Assembly (NCBI GenBank): GCA_017642485.1
Contig: JAGCPC010000055.1
Location: 1-40,631 of the forward strand
DNA length: 40,631 bases
Reading direction: 5' to 3'
Source of the DNA: Prevotella sp.
GTDB lineage: Bacteria; Bacteroidota; Bacteroidia; Bacteroidales; Bacteroidaceae
The position numbers and the translations under genes were made by a program. The notes under the pieces were generated by a model. The model ran no database searches, was not told the DNA's origin, and worked only from the letters and a program-made list of their open reading frames with translations. Below, piece by piece: positions 36,664 to 40,235 of the stretch. Numbering within the stretch: the first letter of the stretch is position 1; each line of letters starts with the position of its first letter.

Positions 36664-38001
36664 GTGCTTGACAGAGTAAGGCAATACATAGACAGACACA
36701 AGCTGCTGCATTCAGGTGGCAAGTACCTCGTGACATTGTCAGGAGGAGCCGACTCTGTATGCCTGTTGCGCATGATGCTGACACTGGGGTATGATGTTGA
36801 GGCCATACACTGCAATTTCAGACTGCGTGGCGAGGAGAGCGACCGTGATGAGAAGTTTTGTGAGCTACTGTGCGACAAGTTGGGGGTAGCACTTCACAGG
36901 GTACACTTCGACACCCGTGAGTACGCACTCCTGCATAATGTGAGCATCGAGATGGCAGCTCGCGAACTGCGCTACGACTACTTCGAACGACTGCGCCAGA
37001 CCATCGCAGCCGATGGCATACTCGTTGCCCACCACAGGGATGACAACGTCGAGACCATACTGCTCAATATGATACGTGGTACTGGCATACGCGGGCTGGA
37101 GGGTATCAAGCCCCTCAATGGCCATATCATACGTCCGCTCTTGTGCCTCTCACGTGAGGAGATACTCTCTTACCTCGCTGACTGCCATCAGGACTATATC
37201 ACTGATAGTTCCAACCTCGTGGACGATGTGCAGCGCAACAAACTGCGCCTCAATGTCATACCACAGTTGAAGGCCATCATACCCTCAGCCTCTGAAGGTA
37301 TCGACACCACGTCAAAACACGTTGCTGAGGCCATACATGTGTACGACGATGCCATATCACGAGGCATCGATGCTTGTGTGCATGACAATGTGATAGATAT
37401 CGAGCAACTCATGCAGCAGCCTTCGCCCGAAGCACTGTTGTATGAGATACTCAGCCGATACGGTGTCACATCGGGCATGGCGCAGCAGATATACGACAAC
37501 CTCCTCACATCTATGCCAGGCAAGCTATGGCATGCTGAGCCGTACATCATAGCAAAGGACAGAGACACCCTCATAATAGGCCGCAATACACCTCCGCCAC
37601 CCCCTCTCATCATCCCAGAGTGCGGAAAGTATATCGTTGACGATCTCGTCAACGTCAACTGTGAACTGTGCACCGTGAACTGTCAACCATCAACCGCTCC
37701 CTACCATGCTACTCTCGATGCCGACAAGGTACGTTTTCCACTTACCATCAGGGGAGTGATGCCAGGCGACCGCTTCACACCATACGGCATGAAGGGCAGC
37801 AAACTCGTCAGTGACTACCTCACAGACCGTAAGCGCAACTACTTCCAACGATGCCGCCAACTCGTGATGCTCGATGCTACGGGCACCATACTATGGCTCA
37901 TCGGAGAGAGGGTAGCAGCACAGGCAGCCATCACCGACCACACAATAAACGTGCTCTCCGTGCGTTATATAATAGATGAAAGTAACAGCCCACAAGAATA
38001 A
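36664..38001 (+). CDS. tilS: tRNA(Ile)-lysidine synthase
   Basis: TilS adds lysine to C34 of tRNA-Ile(CAU), so that it reads AUA codons, which are abundant in this genome segment. The GTG at 36664 gives a normal N-terminus (LDRVRQYID). A TTG at 36613 lies in repeat DNA and is unlikely. The 445-residue product has the PP-loop SGGADS (26-31), HHRDDNVET, RPLL and the C-terminal FPLTIRGVMPGDRF and SDYLTDRK domains. Residues about 325-344 (VDDLVNVN, then Cys-rich CELCTVNC) are an in-frame insertion of a palindromic segment plus heptamers, in the linker before the C-terminal domain. It overlaps the next gene by 26 bases. Confidence 0.93.
   Translation: MLDRVRQYIDRHKLLHSGGKYLVTLSGGADSVCLLRMMLTLGYDVEAIHCNFRLRGEESDRDEKFCELLCDKLGVALHRVHFDTREYALLHNVSIEMAARELRYDYFERLRQTIAADGILVAHHRDDNVETILLNMIRGTGIRGLEGIKPLNGHIIRPLLCLSREEILSYLADCHQDYITDSSNLVDDVQRNKLRLNVIPQLKAIIPSASEGIDTTSKHVAEAIHVYDDAISRGIDACVHDNVIDIEQLMQQPSPEALLYEILSRYGVTSGMAQQIYDNLLTSMPGKLWHAEPYIIAKDRDTLIIGRNTPPPPPLIIPECGKYIVDDLVNVNCELCTVNCQPSTAPYHATLDADKVRFPLTIRGVMPGDRFTPYGMKGSKLVSDYLTDRKRNYFQRCRQLVMLDATGTILWLIGERVAAQAAITDHTINVLSVRYIIDESNSPQE
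37635..37695 (+). repeat. In-frame palindrome plus heptamer array within tilS
   Basis: GTTGACGATCTCGTCAAC (37636-37653) is a palindrome apart from its two central bases. Units GTCAACT, GTGAACT, GTGCACC, GTGAACT, GTCAACC, ATCAACC follow in phase (37654-37695). Where a TGA could arise, the units carry changes that keep the frame open (GTGCACC). Confidence 0.85.
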
Positions 38002-39535
38002 TACACTTCTGCTGCTATCATACCTCTTTGTTATGATAACAGCCGTATGCAGTTGTGATGACAATGACTCATTCACCACTTCATACACCAATCAGCTTAC
38101 TATATCCAGAAGCACACTGTCTTTCGACACCGTATTCTCCAAGGTGCCCTCGGCATCCAAGAAGCTTATGGTGTACAACCACTCTGGCGACGGCGTGCGC
38201 ATCACCTCTGTTGAGCAAAGTCGCGGTGCAGAGAAGTCAGGCTTCAGGGTCAATGTCAATGGCATGTATATCAGTCCCGATGCCGACAACCGTCTCACCA
38301 CCCCCATCGAGCTACGCTCTGGCGACTCCCTCAGGGTATGGGTGGAGATAACATCGCAGAAGGAAAACAATACCATAGAACCACAGAAGGTGGAGGACAA
38401 CATACTCTTCAACCTCGAGAGCGGCCGTCAGCAGGCTGTCAACCTCTATGCTTGGACATGGGATGCCGACACCTTGCAAGACCACACCATCGCCACCGAC
38501 TCGCTCATAGACAATAAGGGTGAGCGACCACTCGTGGTACACGGCAAACTCACCGTAGCACCCGAGGCGACACTCACCATAGCAGCAGGCTCCATAGTAT
38601 ATTTCCATCAGGATGGCGAACTCAATGTCGATGGCAGACTGGTGATAAGCGGCGAAAAAGACAAACTGGTGACACTACGCTGTGACCGTCTCGACTCATT
38701 GCTCCAGATGAGTTATGACGAGATACCCGGCAAGTGGCAGGGCGTCACACTCAGCAAGTCATCACATGACAACGTCATAAGCTACCTCGACCTGCACGGT
38801 TCGGAGTATGGCATAAAGATTGACGGCGATGGCAGCGACAAGGCAGGGCTGTCCATAGACCACTCCATCATCATGAATACTCTCGGCGATGGCATCACAT
38901 GCAACAATGCCCAGCTCGCCATCAACAACTGTCTCATAGCCAATTCCAGTGGCTACCAGCTCAACGTCACTGGGGGCAACGTCAGCGTCAATAGCAGCAC
39001 CCTTGCTTCATTCTACGGATACACCTCATCACGTAAGTACGCACTGCGTATGACGGATATCAACCCCAACGTTGACGATATCGTCAACGTTAACGAAAAC
39101 GATAACGAAAACGAAAACCCCAAGTCCCTCCCATTGACCTTCCGTATGACAAACTCCATCGTCACGGGTTATGCCGATGACCAGGTGTACTGGTTTCCTT
39201 ACGATATGACTGCCGACCCCGACATACTCATACAGCACAGCTATCTGCGTACCCACAAACCCACTGACGAGTACTCTTCCAAGATGCTCCAGGACAACCT
39301 CTACGACGGCGACACCGACGAGACCATGCAGGGTAGGGGACTCTTCCAGTATGTCAATGACGACGGCACCAGTTTCAAGTACGATTTCACCCCCAAGGCA
39401 GGCACTCCTGTCATCGCCTCTGCCGATCCCACCACGTCATGCTCTGACGACATACTCGGTACTACCCGCAAGGCGACACCCGACATGGGATGCTACGAAA
39501 CCACTGCGAGCGAAAACGAAAACGAAAACAAGTAG
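37976..39535 (+). CDS. Lipoprotein with right-handed beta-helix domain
   Basis: The 519-residue protein has a lipoprotein signal with Cys25 or Cys27 (ITAVCSC) followed by Asp residues. An N-terminal beta-sandwich-like region (about 35-160) precedes a beta-helix: KLTVAPEATLTIAAGSIVYF, ELNVDGRLVISG, VISYLDLHGSEYGI, SIDHSIIMNTLGDGITC, LAINNCLIANSSG, VSVNSSTLASF (rungs given singly). Such surface proteins bind or cut polysaccharides, but no catalytic site is seen. Two in-frame repeat insertions occur: VDDIVNVN plus Asn/Glu-rich residues (366-382), and the C-terminus SENENENK. It sits between tilS (26-base overlap) and cdd (6-base gap). Confidence 0.8.
   Translation: MKVTAHKNNTLLLLSYLFVMITAVCSCDDNDSFTTSYTNQLTISRSTLSFDTVFSKVPSASKKLMVYNHSGDGVRITSVEQSRGAEKSGFRVNVNGMYISPDADNRLTTPIELRSGDSLRVWVEITSQKENNTIEPQKVEDNILFNLESGRQQAVNLYAWTWDADTLQDHTIATDSLIDNKGERPLVVHGKLTVAPEATLTIAAGSIVYFHQDGELNVDGRLVISGEKDKLVTLRCDRLDSLLQMSYDEIPGKWQGVTLSKSSHDNVISYLDLHGSEYGIKIDGDGSDKAGLSIDHSIIMNTLGDGITCNNAQLAINNCLIANSSGYQLNVTGGNVSVNSSTLASFYGYTSSRKYALRMTDINPNVDDIVNVNENDNENENPKSLPLTFRMTNSIVTGYADDQVYWFPYDMTADPDILIQHSYLRTHKPTDEYSSKMLQDNLYDGDTDETMQGRGLFQYVNDDGTSFKYDFTPKAGTPVIASADPTTSCSDDILGTTRKATPDMGCYETTASENENENK
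39068..39117 (+). repeat. In-frame perfect palindrome plus hexamer array within the beta-helix gene
   Basis: A perfect 24-base palindrome (39068-39091) with core GTTGACGATATCGTCAAC is followed by AACGAA/AACGAT hexamers coding NENDNENEN. The stretch 39070-39094 matches 37635-37659 in tilS at 23 of 25 bases and has the same reading phase. Confidence 0.9.
39512..39529 (+). repeat. GAAAAC hexamer array at the 3' end of the beta-helix gene
   Basis: Three GAAAAC units encode ENENEN just before the stop codon. Confidence 0.85.
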
Positions 39536-40190: not shown

Positions 40191-40235
40191 TGTTGACAAT
40201 GTTGACAATGTTGACAATGTTGACAATGTTGACAA
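40191..40235 (+). repeat. Five perfect nonamers TGTTGACAA
   Basis: TGTTGACAA occurs five times without interruption. The shifted unit GTTGACAAT differs by one base from GTTGACGAT, the half-site of the palindromes in tilS and the beta-helix gene. Confidence 0.95.

Follow-up and report, generated by a model that had tools for sequence, protein, structure and literature searches.

Tandem hexanucleotide arrays in frame within unrelated Prevotella genes, and a palindrome common to tilS and its neighbor

Several kinds of short repeats are known from the coding sequences of bacteria. According to the sections of PMC2996958 that deal with them, the palindromic elements of Rickettsia are in-frame coding repeats in housekeeping genes, where they typically encode non-structured segments, and PARCEL is an amphipathic coding repeat of many membrane proteins that has spread horizontally. 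Among tandem repeats, heptamers are described from Beggiatoaceae, Cyanobacteria, and Bacteroidetes in the relevant part of PMC4679880, and the TAACTGA sets of a Beggiatoaceae genome lie mostly just upstream of start codons. The same part of that article credits Mrazek et al. 2007 with the finding that heptamers are the commonest unit of long repeats in most genomes, while units whose length is a multiple of three are the likeliest to be in coding regions. Here we analyze a stretch of 40,631 nucleotides from Prevotella sp. (contig JAGCPC010000055.1; "the window" is this whole stretch). In the window, the tilS gene and the neighboring gene bh, which is beta-helix lipoprotein-like, have a short, nearly palindromic module in common, and in both genes the module is joined to tandem repeats.

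The bh gene (37976-39535, + strand) encodes 519 amino acids. At 39068-39118 (+ strand) it contains an array of hexamers that encodes residues 365-381 (NVDDIVNVNENDNENEN). We aligned 29 relatives, taking the best 29 of the 223 genomes that matched apart from the bacterium's own. None of them has a counterpart of this segment, which is an insertion relative to all 29. We also aligned 15 further homologs of the protein, from 120 listed of the 409 found, and the site is empty in 12 of them. P0001 (98% identical) has the segment, with the same array length as in the window, and P0002 (89%) and P0003 (67%) have other Asn-rich residues at the site. In the structural model of the protein (mean predicted local distance difference test score, or pLDDT, of 76.0), the score is under 50 at residues 367-381, which are inside the insert and between two strands. 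Judging from this low-confidence loop of the model, the insert probably sits in a loop that tolerates it.

The bh segment is a member of a genome-wide family of hexamer arrays. The unit is degenerate: AAC followed by GNN or CNN. A pattern of three units (AACGNNAACGNNAACGNNAAC) has 45 matches in the bacterium's own genome and 90, 217, and 80 matches in three related genomes (L098, L099, and L100). The reversed pattern has 0 matches in the own genome, 0 in L098, 1 in L099, and 1 in L100. (L098 is the genome of Prevotella sp. RGIG5030, from roe deer rumen; the other relatives with names are Prevotellaceae bacterium UBA2738 and UBA4332.) The pattern is unevenly distributed in the genus: it is absent from 187 of 249 genomes and present in 62, a few of which have dozens to hundreds of matches (217 in G180 and 203 in G206).

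Most of these arrays are in genes and in one preferred frame. We pooled 114 arrays from four genomes, which were partly picked because they hold arrays. Open reading frames (ORFs) of at least 200 codons contain 86 of the 114, and the other 28 lie outside such ORFs. The coding arrays are read as Asn-X in 62 cases, as Val-X on the opposite strand in 12, as Leu-X on the opposite strand in 10, and in each of two other frames once. One of the rare frames is free of stop codons in 83 of the 86 arrays, so avoidance of stops alone does not explain the preference. By eye, 8 of the 10 opposite-strand Leu-X arrays look like the hydrophobic cores of signal peptides (LALTLALVGC and similar). In contiguous samples of three genomes, the numbers inside long ORFs are 43 of 58 for hexamer arrays, 85 of 270 for period-7 runs, and 2595 of 3160 for random 30-mers. 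Hexamers are thus nearly as frequent in genes as chance predicts, whereas heptamers are depleted there but still present. We scanned ten hand-picked array-bearing ORFs for Pfam-type domains. The eight from the own genome had TamB, phosphoesterase, sulfatase, class-I tRNA synthetase, MatE, aminotransferase, NAD-dependent DNA ligase, and DUF308 domains. Of the two from L098, one had DsbD_TM and a thioredoxin domain and the other was a tRNA synthetase with Val_tRNA-synt_C.

The spelling of the unit is specific to the genome. AACCTT makes up 31 of 71 units in the sample from the own genome and 0 of 112 in G180. Within each of G000, G180, and G008, the leading unit is the same in coding arrays as in other arrays (the L098 sample for this comparison held coding arrays only). 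The differences between genomes extend to single sites. In a loop of a DsbD-like protein, which we compared across 24 genomes, G398 has forward hexamers, G180 has reversed hexamers, G000 has a GC-rich insert with CTCCCCCTGCAGGGG twice, and G008 has a different GC-rich insert. The other 20 of the 24 genomes have no repeat insert there, and two of these (G109 and G098) have a short, unrelated extension. By sequence comparison, insertion at this loop appears to have been recurrent. CTCCCCCTGCAGGGG, a GC-rich palindromic motif, is itself dispersed: with up to one mismatch allowed and the strands counted separately, the own genome has 23 matches to it and none to its reversed form. A copy with a single mismatch is found on C129, 15 nt away from a hexamer array (C129:26866).

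The neighbor of bh, tilS (36664-38001, + strand), encodes tRNA(Ile)-lysidine synthase, as identified by PF01171 (3.8e-45) and by its homologs; its GTG start is inferred from the length of P0121. The two genes have a close match about 1.4 kb apart: 37635-37659 in tilS (CGTTGACGATCTCGTCAACGTCAAC) and 39070-39094 in bh (CGTTGACGATATCGTCAACGTTAAC) are identical at 23 of 25 bases and are read in the same frame, in which GTT GAC GAT NTC GTC AAC gives V D D L/I V N. Tandem repeats directly follow both copies: hexamers up to 39118 in bh, and in tilS six heptamers (CGTCAAC, TGTGAAC, TGTGCAC, CGTGAAC, TGTCAAC, and CATCAAC) at 37653-37694 (+ strand), which make up 42 nt, or 14 codons, in frame. An earlier, sequence-only reading had reported this match, with its common phase and the repeats behind both copies, and direct comparison of the sequences bears it out. 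That reading also called both copies palindromic. In bh there is indeed a perfect 24-nt palindrome, AACGTTGACGATATCGTCAACGTT, at 39068-39091 (+ strand), with halves AACGTTGACGAT and ATCGTCAACGTT, but the tilS copy (37635-37654, + strand) is imperfect, with 9-nt arms and a 2-nt center. Similarly, "insert" is the right word for bh but not for tilS, where the stretch replaces other residues and adds no length compared to nine aligned relatives.

The tilS stretch is likely to be a member of the same family. We aligned 17 TilS homologs, from 120 listed of the 7973 found, and VDDLVNVN is present only in P0121 (98% identical). P0122 (86%) has NENES in its place and retains most of the heptamer-coded part, P0123 and P0136 have NGNVNGNGN at the site, and the other 13 have none of these. 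The TilS model is of intermediate confidence (mean pLDDT 69.7). It shows the repeat-coded stretch as a strand with a pLDDT of about 60, and this strand (residues 328-335) should be taken as no more than a hint. The STRR heptamers of cyanobacteria have the same period as these heptamers and similar-looking units.

Both sites hold repeats in relatives as well. The L098 genome has AACGTTAACGGGAACGGGAAC in both tilS and bh, and its proteins read like P0003 and P0123. The spelling in P0002 (bh) and P0122 (TilS), which we assume to be from one organism, is different again from both the window and L098. Thus, in more than one lineage both sites are coded by repeats, with another spelling each time. 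In one respect the sequence-only reading is supported: the two unrelated proteins have an in-frame module in common, one that is repeat-derived and of recent origin.

The palindrome itself is not what is dispersed. At up to three mismatches, the motif has 6 matches in the window against 0.03 expected (none of 100 shuffles reached 6), which is more than chance would give, and 4 of the 6 are the tilS and bh sites, each counted on both strands. We found no exact copy in the rest of the own genome (2.09 Mb). Of 398 genomes in the genus, 2 have the exact motif, the own one included, and in the other genome it lies in an unrelated ORF of 1,006 codons. (We presume from its resemblance that this ORF encodes an RNA polymerase subunit.) Near-matches at C14 and C100 are inside ordinary ORFs, and the exact pattern is also present in 32 viral contigs. 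The sequence-only reading had named two observations as telling against it, namely absence of the motif elsewhere in the genome and its conservation in distant TilS homologs; the absence is what we found, while among the 17 aligned homologs only P0121 has the motif. That reading had also suggested that the palindrome seeds the array. This is not supported: in the own genome and three relatives, the hexamer arrays that we listed lack the palindrome, except for bh. Moreover, the palindrome of bh keeps the hexamer register and thus belongs to the array instead of preceding it. The arrays are widespread without the palindrome, so the array family is likely the source of the palindrome and not the reverse. 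What does set the two loci apart is a pair of successive off-pattern units (GACGAT, then A/CTCGTC) that occur together only there. In another part of the window, downstream of a cytidine deaminase gene, the 9-mer TGTTGACAA is repeated five times (40191-40235), and it includes GTTGAC, as the palindrome does.

We propose that hexanucleotide arrays have repeatedly been copied or expanded, from repeat DNA of the same genome, at sites that tolerate a loop, and we consider this explanation, with the bh stretch as a member and the tilS stretch as a likely one, to be probable. Repeat DNA that is already in the genome would be copied into, or expanded at, a protein site that tolerates a loop. Purifying selection would then retain mainly the orientation and frame that give Asn-X, and Val-X and Leu-X (the latter mostly resembling signal peptides) would be minor outcomes. 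One of the common units, AACGTT, reads the same on both strands. An array can therefore pair with itself by folding back, and the perfect palindrome in bh might have arisen by fold-back repair of the array. The near-copy in tilS, 1.4 kb away, might have come from one templated copying event. The existence of the family, its position in frame, its spelling by genome, and the insertions in bh and in the DsbD-like loop relative to other genomes are observed here; copying, fold-back repair, and a connection of tilS with bh are what we infer from these patterns. We found no enzyme responsible for the spread of the arrays. Loss of mismatch repair was considered as a cause and rejected: MutL is present in 32 of 32 genomes and MutS in 31 of 32, and the genome that lacks a MutS hit (G009) has no arrays.

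The order of units within arrays bears on how they grow. Adjacent identical hexamers, which growth by slippage of single units should produce, are not enriched over shuffles in any of four genomes (25 of 124 versus a shuffled mean of 22.5, 35 of 144 versus 44.2, 6 of 83 versus 12.5, and 10 of 37 versus 10.1). Identity at a lag of two units is above shuffles in G000 and G008 and below the shuffled mean in G180, and identity at a lag of three units is above shuffles in G000 and G180; the L098 genome shows neither. These enrichments speak for duplication of blocks of 12-18 nt within arrays. The arrays are also clustered in G180. Among the matches listed for this genome (of 217), leaving out the rows from C19, 42 arrays on 12 contigs form 28 pairs within 5 kb, compared to a within-contig mean of 12.4 (0 of 2000 permutations). 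There are 15 pairs within 3 kb versus 7.5 (15 of 2000) and 9 within 2 kb versus 5.1 (130 of 2000).

Several observations weigh against our proposal. The tilS stretch fails the strict unit pattern and, as mentioned above, adds no length. The lag-2 and lag-3 enrichment is likewise what one would expect if blocks of 12-18 nt slipped within an array. In G180, at least three units are shared by 2 of 42 near pairs of arrays versus 143 of 1039 other pairs, and four units by 0 of 42 versus 9 of 1039. Arrays that lie near each other are thus no more alike than distant ones. On this ground we do not retain local copying as a general explanation, and the likeness between tilS and bh is a special case. 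At some sites, such as L181 of G180 and L216 of G008, both of the relatives compared are rich in Asn. In bh, AACCCCAA is found both on the left of the array (39062-39069, + strand), where it is also one hexamer unit in register, and at its right end (39116-39123, + strand), 54 nt from the left copy. Since both copies are in hexamer register, they could be a duplication or just one more hexamer unit; no clean target-site duplication was established, and there was no close empty-site DNA for comparison. Finally, the 98% identical P0001 has the same array length, so no present-day movement is seen in this one further allele.

Much of this would fit arrays that grew in place by slippage of native codons for Asn-X loops, with selection for Asn-rich loops making them alike. 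The predominance of the Asn-X frame (62 of 86), the repetition of blocks at a lag of 2 or 3 units in three of the four genomes, and the sites that are Asn-rich in both relatives agree with this, as does the enrichment of hexanucleotide repeats in most prokaryotic phyla, with Bacteroidota repeat-dense also within genes, in the portion of PMC12699852 that covers them. Against it are coding and other arrays that lead with the same unit within a genome while genomes differ, arrays in the opposite orientation (in one case at the very DsbD-like loop where a relative has forward ones), and adjacent identical units that are no more frequent than in shuffles, and we think that it is unlikely. A mobile coding element of the Rickettsia type, with the palindrome inserted in both genes and the repeats as by-products, would explain why a palindromic sequence is in frame in two unrelated genes and why the closest other alleles, P0002 for bh and P0122 for TilS, lack it. 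With just two exact loci in the own genome and a second genome in the genus that has it in an unrelated ORF, and with the bh copy in the register of hexamers that are also found where there is no palindrome, this is very improbable, and we rejected the palindrome as a dispersed element. The likeness to Rickettsia that the sequence-only reading had noticed holds for the outcome, in-frame repeat DNA in housekeeping genes, and not for the palindrome as the element.

A different question is what made the two copies so similar. Gene conversion or template switching between tilS and bh would give the 23/25 match whatever made the arrays, and is compatible with recurrent copying from the genome's own repeat DNA. 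Besides the off-pattern pair of units that is confined to these loci, it is favored by the L098 genome, where a 21-mer has six copies, three of them in a 9.4-kb part of a single contig, in tilS, bh, and the tRNA-synthetase gene with the Val_tRNA-synt_C domain. The lack of greater likeness among near arrays in G180 goes against it, and a single pair defies statistics; we regard it as quite possible, if somewhat short of an even chance. An assembly error would be conceivable for a fragmented metagenome-assembled genome (193 contigs and 78.87% completeness), as repeats are assembly hazards. However, P0001 and P0121, which at 98% identity are other sequences, carry the same segments, and an error is hardly credible.

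Other repeats accompany the hexamers. The bh gene has a second short hexamer run (AACGAAAACGAAAAC) at its C-terminus (39515-39529, + strand); Pfam gives no match for bh itself at 1e-3, while its homologs carry PF13229. Among the exact runs of at least 21 nt in 334 kb of the own genome, 19 have period 7, 4 have period 6, 2 have period 8, and 7 have period 9. Tandem repeats with units of 5-11 nt exceed chance, as in the long simple sequence repeats of prokaryotes. Five of the 58 hexamer arrays touch a period-7 run, versus 2.2-2.3% of random placements, which is suggestive of hexamer-heptamer composites, with small numbers. The tilS stretch is outside the 58 because it fails the strict pattern. 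At L110:4912-4983, in a MatE-family gene, a hexamer array runs straight into AACTGTG heptamers, in the same order as in tilS. In the window, a long ORF on the minus strand (3-1688) has heptamer blocks at about 179-266 and 445-567, which are translated in frame into repeats of TVHSSQF and SNLKSQT. Two relatives (stretches L179-L238) have other dispersed 18-mers, some of which carry inverted arms: GCAAGCCAACAAGTTGGA at 21 places in 786 kb of G008 and CAGGCGAGCAAGCTCGGA at 7 places in 389 kb of G180. These may be what reads as RACSPEHRLERK beside some arrays.

The usual view of simple repeats in the genes of bacteria is that they result from slippage and switch genes on or off. Here, a genome contains one small vocabulary dozens to hundreds of times, for the most part in frame and with core enzymes among the genes concerned, and this vocabulary varies from genome to genome as copied sequence would. 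If copying is confirmed, then new protein loops and signal peptides would arise directly from repeat DNA. The DsbD-like loop, with its four states, offers a ready comparison for measuring the rate at which repeat-derived loops arise. A more speculative extension, which we consider rather unlikely, is active repeat-writing in these Prevotella-type genomes: hexamer arrays with their genome-specific spelling, heptamer arrays, and GC-rich palindromes would all be copied between places and compete for permissive loops of core proteins (TilS, tRNA synthetases, DNA ligase, and the DsbD-like protein), so that new loops and even signal peptides come from a common repeat vocabulary, possibly by way of a templated enzyme that is not yet known.

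In the literature that we searched, no report of an AAC+GNN/CNN hexamer family in Prevotella turned up. In-frame arrays with genome-specific spelling would be a variant of simple repeats in coding DNA, one that we infer to spread between genes. As far as the sources cited at the outset describe the known systems, these arrays resemble the long simple sequence repeats of prokaryotes in being short tandem arrays that are dispersed, in their scattered distribution, and in having hosts among the Bacteroidetes. They are unlike them in that there is one degenerate hexamer, spelled in a genome-specific way, mainly in genes and in a preferred frame, and that related genomes have different inserts in one loop. 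Rickettsia elements are palindromes, whereas what is dispersed here is a hexamer in tandem, and not the palindrome. Like PARCEL as it is described, the arrays are coding repeats present in unrelated genes; they depart from that description in forming short Asn-X loops and in being found in enzymes too.

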